A stretch of 7,290 nt of DNA from an uncultured Intestinimonas sp. (lineage in GTDB: Bacteria; Bacillota_A; Clostridia; Oscillospirales; Oscillospiraceae): NCBI GenBank assembly GCA_958435885.1, contig CAUBHZ010000085.1, positions 1 through 7,290 of the forward strand, in the 5' to 3' direction. The position numbers and the translations under genes are program-made. Below, one piece after another: positions 1-7,290 of this stretch. The notes beneath the pieces were generated by a model, which saw nothing but the letters and a program-made list of their open reading frames with translations, was not told the origin of the DNA and did no database searches. Within the stretch, counting starts at the first letter, position 1, and every line of letters begins with the position of its first letter.

Positions 1-720
1 GGCAAGAAGCTGCTGATGATGGGCAGCGAGTTCGGCCAGTGGAACGAGTGGCACTTTGAGTACTCCCTGGACTGGCACCTGATGGACAATGAGATCAATC
101 GGAAGACCCAGGCCTTCTTCAAGGCCGCCAACCACCTCTATCTGGAGCACCCGGAGCTGTGGCAGGAGGACTTCTCCTGGAAGGGCTTCGAGTGGATCTA
201 CGCCGACGACAACCAGGCCAACACCATCTCCTTCCTCCGCAAGGACGACAAGGGGGACACCCTGGTGGTGGTGTGCAACTTCTCGCCGGTGGACCGGACG
301 GGCTACTGCATCGGCGTGCCGGTACCCGGCGCCTACACCTGCATCTTCAACACCGACGACGAGGCCTTCGGCGGCGAGGGCCGGGGGGACAAGGAGCCGG
401 TGAAGAGCACCTATAACCCCTGCCACGGCCGGGAGCAGTCCATCATCATCACCCTGCCGCCCATGAGCGCGGTGATCTATAAGTGTACCCGCAAGTTCCC
501 CGCCCGGCGGAAGAAGGAGGCCAAGCTGGCCGTAAAGGCCCCGGCGTCCAAGCCGGCGGTGCGCAAGGCCGCGGCCAAGCCCGCCGTGAAGGAGAAGGCG
601 GCCAAACCCGCCCTGCGCAAGGCCGCCGCCAAGCCGGCGGTGAAGGAGAAGTCCCCCCACCCGGCGGTGCGCCCCAAGGCCCAGCACCCCGCCGTAAAGA
701 AGTCCCCCAAGGAGGGGTGA
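1..720 (+). CDS. glgB: 1,4-alpha-glucan (glycogen) branching enzyme, C-terminal part, with Lys/Ala/Pro repeat tail
   Basis: The reading frame is open from base 1 and ends at TGA 718-720; the 5' part, including the catalytic residues of this GH13 enzyme, lies outside the window. GlgB cuts alpha-1,4 glucan chains and re-attaches them as alpha-1,6 branches in cytoplasmic glycogen. The family motif MGSEFGQWNEW followed by LDWHLMD (about 19-87) marks the end of the catalytic barrel. The all-beta C-terminal domain follows (VVVCNFSPV, then YTCIFNTDDEAFGG). GlgB proteins usually end just after the LPP motif, seen here as LPPMSAVIYKC (to about 486). This protein continues for about 77 residues rich in Lys, Arg, Ala and Pro. 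I count 25 basic and 4 acidic residues in 487-717. The gene is followed by glgC after 54 bases, consistent with one operon. The assignment is secure; the function of the tail is unknown. Confidence 0.95.
   Translation, partial: GKKLLMMGSEFGQWNEWHFEYSLDWHLMDNEINRKTQAFFKAANHLYLEHPELWQEDFSWKGFEWIYADDNQANTISFLRKDDKGDTLVVVCNFSPVDRTGYCIGVPVPGAYTCIFNTDDEAFGGEGRGDKEPVKSTYNPCHGREQSIIITLPPMSAVIYKCTRKFPARRKKEAKLAVKAPASKPAVRKAAAKPAVKEKAAKPALRKAAAKPAVKEKSPHPAVRPKAQHPAVKKSPKEG
517..705 (+). repeat. 27-bp tandem repeats encoding the 9-residue units of the GlgB tail
   Basis: Seven consecutive in-frame 27-bp units encode EAKLAVKAP, ASKPAVRKA, AAKPAVKEK, AAKPALRKA, AAKPAVKEK, SPHPAVRPK and AQHPAVKKS, and PKEG then ends the protein. 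The consensus is x-x-(K/H)-P-A-V-x-x-x. Units 2-3 (544-597) and 4-5 (598-651) form a 54-bp super-repeat that differs at 8 positions, 6 of them synonymous. The composition resembles histone H1 C-terminal tails and bacterial H1-like proteins. No folded domain is expected, and the tail is probably disordered. Confidence 0.9.
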
Positions 721-730
721 GCCCCCCTCC
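711..730 (+). other. GC hairpin across the glgB stop codon
   Basis: GGAGGGG (711-717) can pair with CCCCTCC (724-730) around a 6-base loop that contains the TGA stop. No T-run follows, so an efficient intrinsic terminator is unlikely. It may slow the 3' end of glgB translation or stabilise a processed mRNA end, or it may be a chance product of Lys/Gly codons beside a C-run. Confidence 0.3.
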
Positions 731-762
731 CGCTGTTCTCCCGTGATCTCCACTTTGACCGA

Positions 763-770
763 GAGGTGAT
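763..770 (+). promoter_or_regulatory. Extended Shine-Dalgarno site of glgC
   Basis: GAGGTGAT matches the complement of the 16S rRNA 3' end over eight bases. The GAGG core ends 8 bases before ATG 775. A GTG at 766 lies inside this site, so it is a poor start candidate and the ATG is preferred. Confidence 0.8.
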
Positions 771-774
771 AGAG

Positions 775-1992
775 ATGAAAAAAGAATGTGTCGCCATGCT
801 GCTGGCGGGCGGACAGGGCAGCCGTCTGAAAGCTCTGACGTCAAAAGTAGCAAAACCCGCCGTCCCCTTCGGGGGCAAGTACCGCATCATCGACTTTCCC
901 CTGAGCAACTGCGTCAACTCCGGTATCGACACCGTGGGCGTCCTCACCCAGTACCAGCCCCTGGAGCTCAACGGCTACATCGGCAACGGCCAGCCCTGGG
1001 ACCTGGACCGCTCGGACGGCGGCGTCCACATCCTGCCCCCCTACGTGAAGGAGGGGGACAAGGGCACCTGGTACAAGGGCACCGCCAACGCCATCTACCA
1101 GAACATCGGCTTTATCTCCCTGTATGACCCCGACTACGTCCTCATCCTGTCCGGCGACCACATCTACAAGATGGACTACGAGCAGATGCTGGAGCACCAC
1201 AAGGCCATGAACGCCGCCTGCACCATCTCCGTCATGGAGGTCCCCATGGAGGAGGCGCCCCGGTTCGGCATCATGAACGTGGACCAGGACGACATGATCT
1301 ACGAGTTTGAGGAGAAGCCCAAAAAGCCCAAGAGCAACCTGGCCTCCATGGGCATCTACATCTTCAACTGGAAGCAGCTGCGGGAGTACCTCATCGCCGA
1401 CGAGGCCGACGAGAAGTCGGCCAACGACTTCGGCAAGAACATCATCCCCGCCATGCTGGCCAACAACGAGCGGATGGCGGCCTACCGCTTCTCCGGCTAC
1501 TGGAAGGACGTGGGCACCATCGACTCCCTGTGGGACGCCAACATGGATATGCTCTCCGTCCACAGCGGCATCGACCCCTACGACACCGAGTGGCCCATCT
1601 ACGCCCGCACGCCCACCCGTCCCCCCCACTTCACCGGCCCCAACGCCGTGGTCCACCACTCCCTGATGACCGGCGGCTGCGTGGTGGACGGCGAGGTGGA
1701 GAACTCCGTCCTCTTCCACTCCGTGACGGTGGAGAAGGGGGCCAAGGTGCGCTACTCCATCCTCATGCCCGGCGCCGTGGTCAAGGAGGGCGCCGACGTG
1801 GAGTACGCCATCGTGGCGGAGAACGCCGTCATCGGCGCCGGCGCCAAGGTGGGCGCCCCGCCGGAGGCGGAGGGTGCCGACGACGACTGGGGCATCGCCG
1901 TGGTCGCCGAGGGCATCAAGGTGGGTGACAACGCCGTGGTCTCGGCCAAGGCCATGGTCACCCGGAACGTGAAAGGGGGTGCGGCGAAATGA
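775..1992 (+). CDS. glgC: Glucose-1-phosphate adenylyltransferase (ADP-glucose pyrophosphorylase), catalytic subunit
   Basis: This enzyme makes ADP-glucose and pyrophosphate from glucose-1-phosphate and ATP, the committed step of glycogen synthesis in the cytoplasm. The protein has 405 residues from ATG 775, within the usual family range. The nucleotide-binding motif [12 protein letters not shown] is at residues 11-22, followed by [24 protein letters not shown] with Asp128 matches the catalytic aspartate region, and FEEKP with Lys181 matches the glucose-1-phosphate-binding lysine. YWKDVGT is at residues 242-248. The C-terminal part, from about residue 290, has the hexapeptide-like pattern of a left-handed beta-helix, which in this family serves oligomerisation and allostery. 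The start is set by the GAGGTGAT site upstream. The stop overlaps the glgD start (ATGA), suggesting translational coupling and a GlgC/GlgD complex. All active-site motifs appear intact. Confidence 0.96.
1975..1980 (+). promoter_or_regulatory. Ribosome binding site of glgD inside the glgC 3' end
   Basis: GGGGGT lies 8 bases before ATG 1989 and within the last codons of glgC. It is weaker than the other sites in the operon. Initiation of glgD may therefore rely partly on ribosomes terminating at the ATGA overlap. Confidence 0.5.
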
Positions 1993-3107
1993 CCAACAAG
2001 CTGCACGGGATCATTTTCGCATACCGCTCCAATCCTCAGCTCCGGGAGCTCTCCCAGCCCCGGAACACCTGCTCCATCCCCTACGGCGGCCGCTACCGGG
2101 TGGTGGACTTCATGCTCTCCAACATGGTCAACGCCGGCATCTCCGATGTGGGCCTCATCGTACACGCCAACTACCAGTCCCTCCTGGACCACGTGGGCTC
2201 CGGCAAGGACTGGGACCTCTCCCGCAAGCACGGCGGCCTGCGCATCCTGCCCCCCTTCGGCTACGCCGACAAGCAGCGGGAGGGCGACTACCGGGGCCGC
2301 ATGGACGCCCTGGCCGGCGTCTACTCCTACCTGGAGCGCATCCGTCAGGACTACGTGGTCCTGGCCGGCGGCGACGTGGCGGTGAACCTGGACCTGGACG
2401 ACGTCTTTGAGCACCACCTGCGCACCGGCGCCGACATCACCGCCGTGTGCACCCCGGTGCCCAGAGGGGACGCCCGCAGCTCCGACTACTTCACCGTCCG
2501 GGAGGACGGCGTCATCGCCGACGTGTCCGTCCACCCGGTGAGCCCCATGGGCTGCGAGTCCATGGAGGTGTACATCATGAGCAAGGACCTCCTGATGTCC
2601 CTGGTGGAGCACTGCATCGCCCACAACATCCCCTCCTTCAGCCAGGGAGTCCTCCTCAACATGAGCGGCCGGCTCAAGCTGGTGTCCTACACCTTCCAGG
2701 GCTACGCCGCCCGGCTCCAGTCGGTGGCCGGCTACTACGCCCGCAGCATGGAGCTGCTGGACCCCGCCGTCCGGGCCGACCTCTTCAACCCCCTGCGCCC
2801 CATCAAGACCAAGGACATGTCCAACCCCTCCACCTACTACGGCCCCGACTCCAAGTCCAAGAACTCCCTGGTGGCCGACGGCTGCATCATTGAGGGCGAG
2901 GTGGAGAACTCCATCCTCTTCCGCGGCGTCACCGTGGAGAAGGGCGCCAAGGTCCAGAACTGCATCCTCATGCAGGGCACGGTGATCCACCAGGGGGCGG
3001 TGCTCAAATACGCCATCACCGACAAGAACGTACAGGTCAACGCCGGCCGGATGCTCATGGGCCATGAGACCTACCCGCTGGCCATCGCCAAAAACGCCGT
3101 GGTATAA
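1989..3107 (+). CDS. glgD: GlgD, non-catalytic-type ADP-glucose pyrophosphorylase subunit
   Basis: This 372-residue homologue of GlgC shares its layout: an N-terminal nucleotidyltransferase-like domain and a C-terminal beta-helix, including [18 protein letters not shown] (compare [18 protein letters not shown] in GlgC). The catalytic motifs have decayed. The [12 protein letters not shown] loop is replaced by [12 protein letters not shown] (residues 11-22). FEEKP is missing (ADVSVHP in that area), and YWKDVGT is replaced by YAARLQSV. Asp129 in AGGD is kept. In Bacillota, GlgD acts with GlgC in a heteromeric enzyme and raises its activity, and the same role is inferred here. It starts at ATG 1989 within the glgC stop. 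The TAA at 3105-3107 is followed by a 152-base spacer before glgA. Confidence 0.94.
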
Positions 3108-3142
3108 CGGTACATAGACCGCGCAGAGCGGCGCAGGGATGC

Positions 3143-3162
3143 GGCCGCCGTGTACGGCGGCC
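3143..3162 (+). repeat. Perfect 8-bp inverted repeat (hairpin)
   Basis: GGCCGCCG (3143-3150) pairs perfectly with CGGCGGCC (3155-3162) around the loop TGTA. C-rich sequence, not a T-run, follows. It could be an RNA structure or part of a repeated intergenic element. Confidence 0.6.
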
Positions 3163-3190
3163 CCACACCTGCCCCCTCCGGGCACCCGCG

Positions 3191-3218
3191 GGTCCGCCCT
3201 GCATGGCGGCCGCGGACC
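3191..3218 (+). repeat. Inverted repeat with two alternative pairings
   Basis: GGTCCGC (3191-3197) pairs with GCGGACC (3212-3218). The inner CCGCC (3194-3198) can instead pair with GGCGG (3205-3209), which shares bases with the outer stem. The two stems therefore compete. Whether this has regulatory meaning cannot be told from one sequence. Confidence 0.45.
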
Positions 3219-3248
3219 GTGTCCGGACGCGGATCAAGGATGGAGAAA

Positions 3249-3253
3249 AGGAG
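3249..3253 (+). promoter_or_regulatory. Shine-Dalgarno site of glgA
   Basis: AGGAG ends 6 bases before ATG 3260. It fixes the start there rather than at the in-frame ATG 3203, which lies in the inverted-repeat region and would add residues not seen in GlgA. The mature-looking start MNILFAASEVAPFIKTGGL matches the family N-terminus. Confidence 0.85.
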
Positions 3254-3259
3254 TCATAT

Positions 3260-5161
3260 ATGAATATTTTGTTTGCAGCCTCCGAGGTCGCCCCCTTCAT
3301 CAAGACCGGCGGCCTGGCCGACGTGGCCGGTTCCCTCCCCCAGAAGCTGGCCGACATGGGCCATGACGTGAAGGTCATCCTCCCCCTCTACGAGGGCATC
3401 GCCCAGCAGTACCGTGAGAAGATGCGCTTCCTGTTCCACTGGAACTGCCGTCTGGCCTGGCGCACCCCCTACTGCGGCGTCTTCGAGCTGCGGGAGGGCA
3501 ACATCTCCTACCTCTTCGTGGACAACGAGTACTACTTCAAGCGGGCCGAGATCTACGGCCACTACGACGACGGCGAGCGCTTCGCCTTCTTCTCCCGGGC
3601 CGTCATCGAGACCCCGGCCCACCTGGACTGGCACCCCGACATCCTCCACTGCAACGACTGGGAGACCGCCCTGGTGCCCATCTACCTGCTGGAGGAGCGG
3701 GAGCGCATCTGGCAGCTCCGGGGCACCAAGAGCGTCTTCACCATCCACAACATAGAGTATCAGGGCCGCTACGGCGACCAGATCGTCCAGGACCTGCTGG
3801 GCCTCCACCCCGGCTACATGAACGAGCACATGCTGGCCTACCACGGGGACGTGAACCTGATGAAGGGCGCCATCTACGCCGCCGACTACGTCACCACCGT
3901 CTCCCCCACCTACGCCGGCGAGCTTCAGTACCCCTTCTACGCCCACGGCCTGGAGGGCGTGGTGGCCGACAACCGCTGGAAGATGCGGGGCATCCTCAAC
4001 GGCCTGGACACCGCCCTCTATGACCCCTCCAACGGCGCCGGCCTGGCCGCTCCCTTCAGCGCCGACGACCTGAGCGGCAAGGCCGCCTGCAAGAAGGCCC
4101 TCCAGCAGGCGGTGGGCCTCCGGGAGGACCCCGACGTGCCCATCATCGCCTGCGTGTCCCGGCTGGTCAAGCACAAGGGCTTCGAGCTGGTGGCCAACTC
4201 CATCCACGACATCATGGGCATGAACGTCCAGATGGTGGTGCTGGGCACCGGCGAGTGGAACTTTGAGGAGGCCTTCCGCCAGGCCCAGGCCCAGTACCCC
4301 GGCCGCTTCGCCGCCCGGCTCCAGTACTCCGCCGCCCTCTCCACCGCCATCTACGGCGGCGCCGACATCTTCCTCATGCCCTCCCTGGCCGAGCCCTGCG
4401 GCCTGAGCCAGATGATCGCCATGCGCTACGGCACCGTCCCCGTGGTCCGGGAGACCGGCGGCCTCAAGGACACCGTCATCCCCCACGGCGTCTTCGGCGA
4501 CACCGGCTTCACCTTCGCCAACATCAACGCCCACGACATGGTGTGGGTGCTGGGCGAGGCGGTGGGCCTCTACTACAACAACAAGGACGGCGAGGACGGC
4601 TGGCGGGTCCTCCAGCGCAACGGCATGACGAAGGACTTCAGCTGGAACAACCCCGCCCGGGAGTATGAGGACGTCTACTACCAGATCACCGGTATCCCCC
4701 GCCCTACTGAGCCGTCGCCGGAAGAAGCCCCGGTCCCGGCGGCGGAGACCCCTGTTCAGGCTGAGCCGGAAGCCGCGCCCGTAGAGGAGCCCGCCCCCAA
4801 GGCGGAGAAGAAGCCTGCCGCCAAGAAGGCGGCCCCCAAGGCGGCCAAGAAGCCCGCCGCCAAAAAGACCGCCCCCAAGGCTGAGAAGGCGGAGAAAAAG
4901 CCCACCGCCAAAAAGGCGGCCGCCAAGGCCAAGGAGGAGACCCCCGCCCCTGTCAAGGAGGCACCTAAGGCCGAGGAAAAGACCGCTGCCCCCGTCAAGG
5001 AGGCACCCAAGGCCGAGGAAAAGACCGCTGTCCCTGTCAAGGAGGCGCCCAAGGCTGAGGTGAAGGCCGCCGCCCCTGTCAAGGAGGCGCCCAAGGCCAA
5101 GGAGGAGGCTCCCACTCCCGCCAAAGAGGTCTCCGCCGTCAAGACAGAGGCCAAAAAGTGA
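3260..5161 (+). CDS. glgA: Glycogen synthase (ADP-glucose type, GT5) with long low-complexity C-terminal tail
   Basis: GlgA transfers glucose from ADP-glucose to the non-reducing end of alpha-1,4 glucan. The protein has 633 residues against about 480 for typical bacterial GlgA. The core is residues 1-482: KTGGL at 15-19 (ADP-glucose site), HCNDW at 130-134, the IHNIEYQG region, SRLVKHKG with Arg301 and Lys306, EPCGL with Glu378 (counterpart of E. coli Glu377), and RETGGLKDT at 397-405. All expected catalytic residues are present, so the enzyme should be active. After ITGIPRP a tail of about 151 residues begins. Residues 483-513 are Pro/Glu-rich, with 8 Glu and no Lys or Arg. About 45 residues rich in KKPAAKKAAPKA motifs follow, then 14-residue PVKEAPKAEEK repeats to the stop at 5159-5161. 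No membrane segment or signal peptide is visible. The tail's role is unknown; binding to other glycogen enzymes, to the granule or to nucleic acid are all possible. Confidence 0.95.
   Translation: MNILFAASEVAPFIKTGGLADVAGSLPQKLADMGHDVKVILPLYEGIAQQYREKMRFLFHWNCRLAWRTPYCGVFELREGNISYLFVDNEYYFKRAEIYGHYDDGERFAFFSRAVIETPAHLDWHPDILHCNDWETALVPIYLLEERERIWQLRGTKSVFTIHNIEYQGRYGDQIVQDLLGLHPGYMNEHMLAYHGDVNLMKGAIYAADYVTTVSPTYAGELQYPFYAHGLEGVVADNRWKMRGILNGLDTALYDPSNGAGLAAPFSADDLSGKAACKKALQQAVGLREDPDVPIIACVSRLVKHKGFELVANSIHDIMGMNVQMVVLGTGEWNFEEAFRQAQAQYPGRFAARLQYSAALSTAIYGGADIFLMPSLAEPCGLSQMIAMRYGTVPVVRETGGLKDTVIPHGVFGDTGFTFANINAHDMVWVLGEAVGLYYNNKDGEDGWRVLQRNGMTKDFSWNNPAREYEDVYYQITGIPRPTEPSPEEAPVPAAETPVQAEPEAAPVEEPAPKAEKKPAAKKAAPKAAKKPAAKKTAPKAEKAEKKPTAKKAAAKAKEETPAPVKEAPKAEEKTAAPVKEAPKAEEKTAVPVKEAPKAEVKAAAPVKEAPKAKEEAPTPAKEVSAVKTEAKK
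4805..4939 (+). repeat. Histone-H1-like KKPAAKK repeats in the GlgA tail
   Basis: Three related in-frame units encode EKKPAAKKAAPKA (4805-4843), AKKPAAKKTAPKAEKA (4844-4891) and EKKPTAKKAAAKAKEE (4892-4939). The stretch 4799-4939 has 18 Lys and 5 Glu. The pattern resembles histone H1 tails and bacterial Lys/Ala/Pro proteins such as AlgP of Pseudomonas, by composition only. Confidence 0.85.
4940..5149 (+). repeat. 42-bp tandem repeats encoding the 14-residue units of the GlgA tail
   Basis: Four units, TPAPVKEAPKAEEK (4940-4981), TAAPVKEAPKAEEK (4982-5023), TAVPVKEAPKAEVK (5024-5065) and AAAPVKEAPKAKEE (5066-5107), are followed by a degenerate fifth, APTPAKEVSAVKTE (5108-5149). Units 1 and 2 differ at only 4 of 42 bases and later neighbours at 6 and 8, which suggests fairly recent expansion. 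The unit is a multiple of three, so changes in copy number keep the frame. Confidence 0.9.
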
Positions 5162-5225: not shown

Positions 5226-5264
5226 TTGTGCGCCAATCCGTAGCCAAACGGAATGAGACGTAGA

Positions 5265-5290
5265 CGCGGCGGGGGCTTGCCCCCGCCGCG
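5265..5290 (+). terminator. Perfect GC hairpin in the glgA-glgP gap (possible terminator or leader attenuator)
   Basis: CGCGGCGGGGG (5265-5275) pairs perfectly with CCCCCGCCGCG (5280-5290) around CTTG, a known stable G(CUUG)C tetraloop. The sequence after it is only moderately T-rich (T at 5294, 5296, 5297, 5299, then TTTT 5304-5307), so termination would probably be partial. It lies downstream of the predicted glgP promoter, so it would sit in the glgP leader as well as end glgBCDA transcripts. Confidence 0.55.
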
Positions 5291-5322
5291 GCCTCTTGTC
5301 CCGTTTTGAACTTTATTGAAAT

Positions 5323-5330: not shown

Positions 5331-7290
5331 ATGCCAATGCCTACGAAATATACCAAAAAGGAGCTGGAGCAGCAGATCATCGGCAAGCTCCGCCGCAATT
5401 TTGGGCGTGAAGTGGAGGAGGCTACTTCTGTCCACATGTTCCGGGCCTGCGCCCTGGTGCTGCGTGACATCATGTCCGCCCGGGAGCTGGCCACTGAGAG
5501 CAAGATCCGTGACAGCCACGCCCGTCAGGTCCACTATCTGTCCCTGGAGTTTCTCATGGGCCGCTCCCTGGAGAAGAACGCCTACAACCTGGGCGTCCTG
5601 CCCCAGCTGAAGGAGGCCATTGAGGATCTGGGCTTCTCCGCCCCCGACCTCTTCGAGGTGGAGCCCGACGCCGGCCTGGGCAACGGCGGTCTGGGCCGTC
5701 TGGCCGCCTGCTACCTGGAGTCCATGACCACCCTGGAGATCCCCGCCACCGGCTACTCCATCTGCTACGAGCTGGGTCTCTTCAAGCAGAAGATCGTGGA
5801 CGGCCAGCAGGTAGAGCTGCCCGACAACTGGCTGGACATCTCCGACTGCTGGCTCATCCCCAAGATGGATGAGACCGAGAAGGTCCACTTCGGCGGCACC
5901 GTGAAGGACGTGTGGAACCCCGACGGCAGCCACTCCGTGGTCTATGAGGGCGGCAACGACGTGCTGGCCGTGCCCAAGGACATGGAGATCGCCGGCTACG
6001 GCACCGACCACGTCAACGTCCTCCGGCTGTGGGACGCCAAGAGCCCCACTCCCCTGGACATGTCCCTCTTCTCCCGCGGTGAGTACCTGAAGGCCACCGA
6101 GCAGAAGGCCATGGCCGAGTCCATCGCCAAGGTCCTCTACCCCGAGGACAACCACTACGAGGGCAAGTCCCTGCGTCTGAAGCAGCAGTACTTCTTCGTT
6201 TCCGCCACCGTGCAGTGCATCTGCCGGCAGCACAAGGCGGAGTACGGCACTCTGCGCAACTTCCACCAGAAGCATGTCATCCAGATCAACGACACCCATC
6301 CCACCCTGGTGATCCCCGAACTCATGCGCATCCTGCTGGACGAGGAGGGCTACACCTGGGACGAGGCCTGGCACATCGTCACCAACACCGTGGCCTACAC
6401 CAACCATACCATCATGGTGGAGGCCCTGGAGCGCTGGCCCCAGCAGCTCATTGAGTCCCTGCTGCCCCGCATTTGGCAGATCCTGGTGGAGATCAGCAAC
6501 CGCTACCAGGCGCAGCTCAACGAGTACTTCCACGGCGACCAGTCCAAGGTCCGTGACCAGGCTATCATCTGGGGCGGCGAGGTCCGCATGGCCAACCTGT
6601 GTGTGTGCGCCTGCTTCGCGGTGAACGGCGTGTCCGCCCTTCACTCCGACATCCTCAAGCGGGAGACCTTCCACGATATGTACGTCCGCACCCCCGACAA
6701 GTTCAAGAACGTGACCAACGGCATCGATCACCGCCGCTGGCTCAGTGAGATCAACCCCAAGCTGGACGCCCTCATCCAGGACTGCGGCGGCAAGGGCTAC
6801 CAGCTCCACCCCGAGCAGCTGGAGTGCCTGCTCAAGTACCAGGACGACGCCTCCGTGCTGGAGCGGCTGGCCGCCATCAAGGCCGAGAACAAGCGGAACT
6901 TTGCCGCCTATGTGGCCCGGGAGTCCGGCGTGGTGCTCAACACCGACGCCATGTTCGACGTGCAGGTCAAGCGCCTCCACGAGTACAAGCGCCAGCTCCT
7001 CAACGTGATGCACATCACCTACCTCTACCAGCAGCTCAAGAACAACGCCCACTTCGACTTCACCCCCCGGACCTACCTCTTCGGCGCCAAGGCGGCCCCC
7101 GGCTACTCCGTGGCCAAGGACATCATCCACCTCATCAACTCCCTGGCCCAGGCCGTCAACAGCGATCCCGTCTGCAAGGATCGGCTCCAGGTGGTCTTCC
7201 TGGAGAACTACCGGGTGAGCCTGGCCGAGAAGCTCATGCCCGCCAGCGAGCTCTCCGAGCAGATCTCCACCGCCGGCAAGGAGGCCAGCG
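5331..7290 (+). CDS. glgP: Glycogen/maltodextrin phosphorylase, N-terminal part
   Basis: This GT35 enzyme splits alpha-1,4 glucan with phosphate to release glucose-1-phosphate, the breakdown side of the pathway. The frame stays open to the window end, giving 653 codons of an expected roughly 800. Family motifs in order are YLSLEFLMGRSLEKN, EPDAGLGNGGLGRLAACYLES, INDTHPTLVIPELMRIL, NHTIMVEALERWP, DVQVKRLHEYKRQLLN and finally EQISTAGKEAS. The next residues in the family are GTGNMKF, which hold the pyridoxal-phosphate lysine, so the cofactor site is just outside the window. No stop or frameshift interrupts the visible part. It follows glgA by 169 bases and seems to have its own promoter and leader hairpin. 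Whether it also carries a repeat tail cannot be seen. GlgP and MalP types cannot be separated by eye; glycogen phosphorylase is favoured by context. Confidence 0.95.
   Translation, partial: MPMPTKYTKKELEQQIIGKLRRNFGREVEEATSVHMFRACALVLRDIMSARELATESKIRDSHARQVHYLSLEFLMGRSLEKNAYNLGVLPQLKEAIEDLGFSAPDLFEVEPDAGLGNGGLGRLAACYLESMTTLEIPATGYSICYELGLFKQKIVDGQQVELPDNWLDISDCWLIPKMDETEKVHFGGTVKDVWNPDGSHSVVYEGGNDVLAVPKDMEIAGYGTDHVNVLRLWDAKSPTPLDMSLFSRGEYLKATEQKAMAESIAKVLYPEDNHYEGKSLRLKQQYFFVSATVQCICRQHKAEYGTLRNFHQKHVIQINDTHPTLVIPELMRILLDEEGYTWDEAWHIVTNTVAYTNHTIMVEALERWPQQLIESLLPRIWQILVEISNRYQAQLNEYFHGDQSKVRDQAIIWGGEVRMANLCVCACFAVNGVSALHSDILKRETFHDMYVRTPDKFKNVTNGIDHRRWLSEINPKLDALIQDCGGKGYQLHPEQLECLLKYQDDASVLERLAAIKAENKRNFAAYVARESGVVLNTDAMFDVQVKRLHEYKRQLLNVMHITYLYQQLKNNAHFDFTPRTYLFGAKAAPGYSVAKDIIHLINSLAQAVNSDPVCKDRLQVVFLENYRVSLAEKLMPASELSEQISTAGKEAS

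Follow-up and report, generated by a model that had tools for sequence, protein, structure and literature searches.

Two enzymes of a glycogen operon from an uncultured Intestinimonas species, the branching enzyme GlgB and the glycogen synthase GlgA, end in long C-terminal tails rich in lysine, alanine, and proline (K/A/P), and we tentatively propose that these tails are electrostatic anchors on a polyanionic partner. The operon, with the gene order glgB-glgC-glgD-glgA-glgP, occupies a stretch of 7,290 nucleotides (contig CAUBHZ010000085.1; hereafter the window) that truncates glgB at its start and glgP at its end. An earlier, sequence-only reading of the window had suggested a two-enzyme assembly module in which the tails of synthase and branching enzyme pair with each other. 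Our results point to a different arrangement, in which the basic part of the GlgA tail would be a parallel to the GlgB tail and not its binding partner.

The presence of K/A/P-rich tails on GlgA and GlgB, and their lack on GlgC and GlgD, was confirmed in the window. The core of GlgB stops at the residues VIYKCT (codon end at 489) and is followed by 76 residues, 74% of which are lysine, arginine, alanine, or proline (K+R+A+P) and whose net charge of +21 agrees with the value first proposed. When tail periodicity was judged against the 99% level of composition-preserving shuffles, the self-identity of the GlgB tail peaked at 9, 18, and 27 residues (0.40, 0.57, and 0.39; shuffled level 0.33) and that of the GlgA tail at 14 and 28 residues (0.43 and 0.36; shuffled level 0.31). 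Thus, the claim that the repeat units differ in length, 9 versus 14 residues, holds, but a 14-residue repeat through the whole GlgA tail does not, as this period is confined to the distal part. The tandem arrays found by Tandem Repeats Finder were of 27 and 54 nucleotides in glgB and of 15, 39, 48, and 42 nucleotides in glgA. Overall, the GlgA tail (4694-5158, with its stop codon at 5159-5161) has 155 residues and a net charge of +9, and its start is indeed acidic, with a cumulative charge of -7 over the first 32 residues. The first 30 residues are also its best conserved part, with a mean identity of 81%, the remainder averaging 57% (six close-relative tails compared in 15 pairs, aligned columns only).

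AlphaFold models, built from shallow input alignments of 25 and 26 rows, gave predicted local distance difference test (pLDDT) values of 31-38, in blocks of ten, for residues 641-705 of the GlgB of a close relative (L001; 98% identity in the region that it shares with the window) and of 30-44, by blocks, for the window GlgA beyond residue 490. Both tails are basic, low-complexity C-terminal extensions that are predicted to be unstructured. At the start of the GlgB tail, nine residues (490-516) look like a semi-conserved basic motif, approximately [RK][RK]xPxR[KR]xK with the consensus RKxPxRxKK, which we recognized by eye in many Flavonifractor, Lawsonibacter, and Intestinimonas relatives and which is a candidate short motif separate from the GlgB repeats. 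The GlgB of Flavonifractor plautii has a 38-residue tail.

As far as we examined them, the tails belong to GlgA and GlgB and are no general habit of the genome, a conclusion that rests on a genome census and on counts in neighboring genes. The census covered 2.8 of 3.22 Mb (87%) of a complete same-genus genome (G002), in which a purpose-made codon-usage caller, used in place of Prodigal, defined 2111 genes covering 79% of the sequence. In K+R+A+P content of the final 50 residues, GlgB came first (0.68) among the 1825 proteins of at least 150 residues, with GlgA and RNase R sharing second place (0.64); by low entropy of the ends, GlgB and GlgA ranked fourth and sixth. For the best 40-residue stretch the order was RNase R (0.78), GlgB (0.72), and GlgA (0.68). 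Further K/A/P-rich ends were found on TopA, YgiQ, RnfB, trigger factor, and one unnamed protein, and any 40-residue basic stretch rich in these residues and arginine occurred in only 13 of the 2111 proteins. The relatives that we compared were the best 80 of at least 597 stretches ranked by GlgA likeness, and so are near relatives only. With a criterion of K+R+A+P of 0.60 and at least 10 lysines or arginines over 40 residues, which acid-rich GlgA tails may escape, such ends were present in 46 of 62 GlgB and 4 of 71 GlgA proteins, and absent from GlgC (0/70), GlgD (0/75), GlgP (0/55), and all other neighboring proteins of at least 150 residues (0/467). Ends were tail-less in 76 of 80 relatives for GlgC and in 80 of 80 for GlgD, the longest surplus over the window's end being 15 and 17 residues, respectively. 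The restriction of the tails to GlgA and GlgB within the operon was thus borne out, GlgP, which had been named as a further possible carrier, proved tail-less in the 55 relatives counted, and a genome-wide low-complexity habit, the alternative that the sequence-only reading had raised against itself, was rejected within the reach of the census and the neighbor counts. When the basic portion of the GlgA tail was searched against the 11 genomes of the genus, the only matches were the GlgA tails of four close relatives; the score used may discount low-complexity matches and is a poor guide to other tails.

Across relatives, the GlgB tail is common and the GlgA tail is rare. Both ends of both proteins were available in 62 of the 80 loci, the other 18 being dropped with a gene missing or cut. 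At a threshold of 25 residues, 7 loci had both tails, none a GlgA tail only, 49 a GlgB tail only, and 6 neither (Fisher p = 1); at 50 residues, the counts were 5, 1, 40, and 16 (p = 1). One of the seven both-tailed loci (L006) has a GlgA tail that leaves the contig after 32 residues. The GlgB tails of at least 25 residues span 26 to 200 residues. A GlgA tail was present in 11 of 11 same-genus genomes, with at least 100 residues in ten and the contig left after 32 residues in one, and, at a tail threshold of 25 residues, in five of ten further genomes chosen for long GlgA frames. One of the latter (G092) has a 113-residue GlgA tail next to a GlgB end of 22 residues with a net charge of +3. The tails of G075 and G101 are the same as those of L008 and L044 and were not counted as new cases. 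Open-frame length is an unreliable sign of a tail and was not counted, since the GlgA frames of G088 and G132 are long but tail-less. Among 19 distant GlgB C-termini, mostly picked for long frames, six were basic K/A/P-like tails of at least 36 residues when judged by eye (G082, G096, G090, G157, G081, and G077).

Few independent origins of the GlgA tail can be counted, because the tailed sequences are related. The best tree of 64 GlgA rows requires two changes for the GlgA tail (Intestinimonas with L006 and L008; L044), only one of which is forced by well-supported branches, and three for the GlgB tail. Supported independent pairs numbered 1 and 3, which leaves almost no power, and none had both traits changing. 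The GlgA tail was apparently gained later, in the Intestinimonas-Pseudoflavonifractor branch and separately elsewhere, and the sequences suggest a small number of origins: one in the Intestinimonas branch, perhaps one in L044/G101, and one in G092, a genome outside the tree.

Two other GlgA architectures were seen in these searches. A GlgA from another genus of the same family (G053, L275:514-3774, minus strand) is a fusion with a GH13 alpha-amylase-type domain, 1087 residues long (PF08323 then PF00128), and by open-frame length alone (1108-1290 residues) there are perhaps further such fusions in G026, G051, G084, G089, G104, G116, G139, G141, and G159. The GlgA of G041 (L236), one of the five tailed further genomes above, has a long AAEEAAAKKAAEEEAARK-like repeat that leaves the contig and resembles a charged single helix, not a K/A/P tail.

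The GlgB tail seems to be kept at the protein level for its positive charge more than for its sequence. Of the 56 GlgB tails of at least 25 residues, 55 are net positive. In 12 close pairs, picked by eye on the GlgA tree so as to share no branches, the ratio of nonsynonymous to synonymous differences per site (pN/pS) was 0.33 for the tail, a rough value because of gapped repeat alignments and pS of up to 0.62, and 0.12 for the last 163 core codons. Single-base amino acid changes in these tails altered charge in 25 of 84 cases compared with an expected 44% (p = 0.005), and in 53 of 242 compared with 45% when all 33 close, non-independent pairs were included. In 32 of the 33 pairs, synonymous divergence in the tail exceeded that in the core, which makes constraint at the DNA or RNA level unlikely; the repeat region also has no Rfam match, and we judge a DNA- or RNA-level function for it to be unlikely. 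The GlgA tail evolves faster than the GlgB tail by this measure, with a pN/pS of 0.54.

The proposal of a module in which synthase and branching enzyme are joined through their tails, the acidic GlgA segment binding the basic GlgB tail, had been called conceivable in the sequence-only reading and now appears very improbable. It draws on charge order, which we compared in 16 GlgA tails: those of the window, ten species of the genus, and five sequences from outside it (L005, L008, L044, G153, and G092). Contig-cut tails (L006 and L091), the helix-like cut tail of G041, and identical or near-identical tails (L001-L004, G075, and G101) were omitted. In the window and the ten genus species, the cumulative charge falls early, to a lowest value between -4 and -25, before a remainder of net +11 to +17; the five outside tails are likewise acidic first and basic after, with net charges of +9 to +16 in the remainder. 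The charge thus reaches -4 or lower ahead of the basic part in all 16, the dip being deeper than 95% of shuffles in 11, and the GlgA tails of P0029 (Intestinimonas massiliensis), P0044, P0058, and P0045 show the same order by eye. An acidic stretch found in every tail compared, and better conserved than any other part among close relatives, would suit pairing, as would the presence of a GlgB tail in all seven usable loci whose GlgA is tailed. However, the latter is expected anyway because 56 of the 62 GlgB proteins are tailed, and the two tails are uncorrelated, the outcome that the sequence-only reading had named as its own refutation, 49 of 62 loci having the GlgB tail alone. GlgB tails are no more basic beside a tailed GlgA (7 versus 49 loci, p = 0.54), and in G092 the GlgB end beside the GlgA tail carries hardly any charge. 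In the window, the acidic stretch is itself weak and gives way to a basic part. Because a net basic remainder follows the acidic stretch in 16 of 16 GlgA tails, the tails of the two enzymes look more alike than complementary. Tail pairing was rejected as the leading idea on the co-occurrence counts and the GlgB charge comparison.

Two other explanations dispense with a binding partner. Disordered tails could act as entropic bristles that keep the enzymes soluble and free on a crowded granule surface, with charge serving solubility and no specific polyanion involved. The predicted disorder, the wide variation in GlgB tail length and repeat unit, and the mixture of acid and base in GlgA tails are all consistent with this explanation, which nevertheless needs no basicity, whereas nearly every GlgB tail is net positive and charge changes are rarer in it than expected; we consider it doubtful. 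Alternatively, GC-rich in-frame repeats may simply expand by slippage at a permissive C-terminus, without function. Short-period repeats, arrays that change between close species, and the fast, charge-unconserved GlgA tail are what tolerated slippage would produce, but the lack of such ends on GlgC, GlgD, GlgP, and 467 neighbors argues against it, as do a GlgB tail pN/pS well under 1 and a charge kept across relatives. We regard slippage as unlikely overall; it would fit parts of the GlgA tail better than it fits GlgB.

We therefore return to electrostatic anchoring, which is the simplest reading because the GlgB tail seems to conserve its positive charge better than its sequence. Also in its favor are the confinement of the GlgB tail to this protein among those examined, its predicted disorder, and the precedents of TopA and RNase R, which have such ends in G002 too. 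Each tail would hold its enzyme on a polyanion, such as RNA, the nucleoid, the ribosome, polyphosphate, phosphorylated glucan, or an acidic protein, and this anchoring would raise dwell time or local concentration at sites of glycogen building, with the basic part of GlgA acting in parallel with the GlgB tail. Several observations weigh against it. The charge of the GlgA tail is unconserved (19 of 44 changes alter charge compared with 39% expected, p = 0.75, two independent pairs), the tail pN/pS values are rough, as noted above, and the acidic dip lies within the shuffle range in 5 of the 16 GlgA tails (L082, L083, L086, L087, and G092). The GlgB ends of the other distant relatives are short or carry little charge, and that of G116 is acidic (net -19), so the GlgB tail is dispensable on a longer scale. 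Since YgiQ, RnfB, and the unnamed protein of G002 have them, K/A/P-rich ends are not limited to nucleic acid proteins. Finally, most of the lysine-rich end of RNase R could reportedly be removed without effect on trans-translation (PMC3949413). A more ambitious version of the anchoring model, in which glycogen synthesis is organized on a polyanion scaffold or condensate via histone-H1-like tails on GlgB and, in Intestinimonas, also on GlgA, is in our view rather unlikely. If true, granules would start and grow at an RNA, nucleoid, ribosome, or polyphosphate scaffold rather than freely in the cytosol.

Outside their tails, GlgA and GlgB are, by their domain content, ordinary GT5 and GH13 members. 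GlgA has both GT5 domains, the starch synthase catalytic domain (PF08323) and the GT1-type C-terminal domain (PF00534 at 8.3e-14), and the full-length GlgB orthologue of L001 has the complete GH13 branching enzyme set of CBM48, alpha-amylase catalytic, and C-terminal all-beta domains (PF02922, PF00128, and PF02806). The closest named relatives of the window are Intestinimonas species, with a GlgA core that is 98% identical in L001. The features of the window are listed below; the start of glgA previously placed at 3203 has been replaced by a likelier one with AAGGAG just upstream. The product of the third gene we take to be GlgD from its operon position and its likeness to GlgC.

Features of the operon in the 7,290-nucleotide window
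Feature	Positions	Strand	Evidence
glgB, 3' part of folded enzyme, C-terminal all-beta domain	1..489	+	Pfam PF02806 4.5e-25; 5' part beyond window
GlgB C-terminal tail, 76 residues, K/A/P-rich, net +21, 9-residue period	490..717	+	sequence; stop 718-720
glgC, tail-less	775..1992	+	Pfam PF00483 3e-69
glgD, tail-less	1989..3107	+	Pfam PF24894 and PF00483
glgA, GT5 glycogen synthase catalytic part, 478 residues	3260..4693	+	Pfam PF08323 2.9e-82
GlgA tail, acidic proximal segment, 32 residues, cumulative charge -7	4694..4789	+	charge profile
GlgA tail, basic block then 14-residue mixed-charge units, 123 residues, net +16	4790..5158	+	repeats, charge; pLDDT 30-40
glgP, truncated by window end	5331..7290	+	Pfam PF00343 2.9e-237

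Two intergenic regions have strong predicted folds. The gap between glgD and glgA (3108-3259) can form a long, very stable hairpin (-79.6 kcal/mol, z of -2.9 compared with shuffles), and similar DNA was found only in L001 (95%) and L002 (86%) among G002 and the 80 loci. The gap has no Rfam match, and neither does the window as a whole at gathering scores. A strong G+C-rich hairpin in the glgA-glgP gap, at approximately 5265-5290 (-31.7 kcal/mol when 5255-5305 is folded), is possibly a terminator or processing site that sets glgP apart from the biosynthetic genes.

The placement and size of bacterial glycogen granules is a question with few molecular handles, and a GlgB tail that is common to most near relatives and was apparently re-invented on the synthase bears on it. 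Lysine-rich disordered tails are already known on DNA and RNA enzymes; the one described here, apparently selected for charge, is on a glycogen branching enzyme. Our searches of the open-licence literature turned up no description of glycogen enzymes with basic or disordered tails, subscription papers being outside their scope. A survey of prokaryotic low-complexity regions links lysine to nucleic acid binding and serine and threonine to polysaccharide enzymes, although its authors warn that many of the polysaccharide-enzyme cases come from two organisms, and the word glycogen is missing from its main text (PMC6821194).

Compared with known GT5 GlgA and GH13 GlgB enzymes, the proteins described here have the same catalytic parts and differ in the added, predictedly disordered tails, which are lacking in most GlgA proteins examined and many distant GlgB proteins. 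Mycobacterial heparin-binding hemagglutinin and HU-type proteins have K/A/P repeats and bind heparin or DNA. Their composition is similar, but they are surface or nucleoid proteins and not glucan enzymes. RNase R, like GlgA and GlgB, is an enzyme with a flexible lysine-rich end, and this end is reported to be needed for its recruitment to ribosomes (PMC3949413); unlike them, it acts on RNA and has had its key tail residues mapped. In actinobacterial TopA, loss of the C-terminal lysine repeats reportedly causes the enzyme to leave DNA more readily and to lose processivity (PMC7398561). Degenerate lysine-enriched C-terminal repeats on a polymer-acting enzyme are common to TopA and the two glycogen enzymes, although GlgA and GlgB make or branch a glucan that is neutral unless modified.

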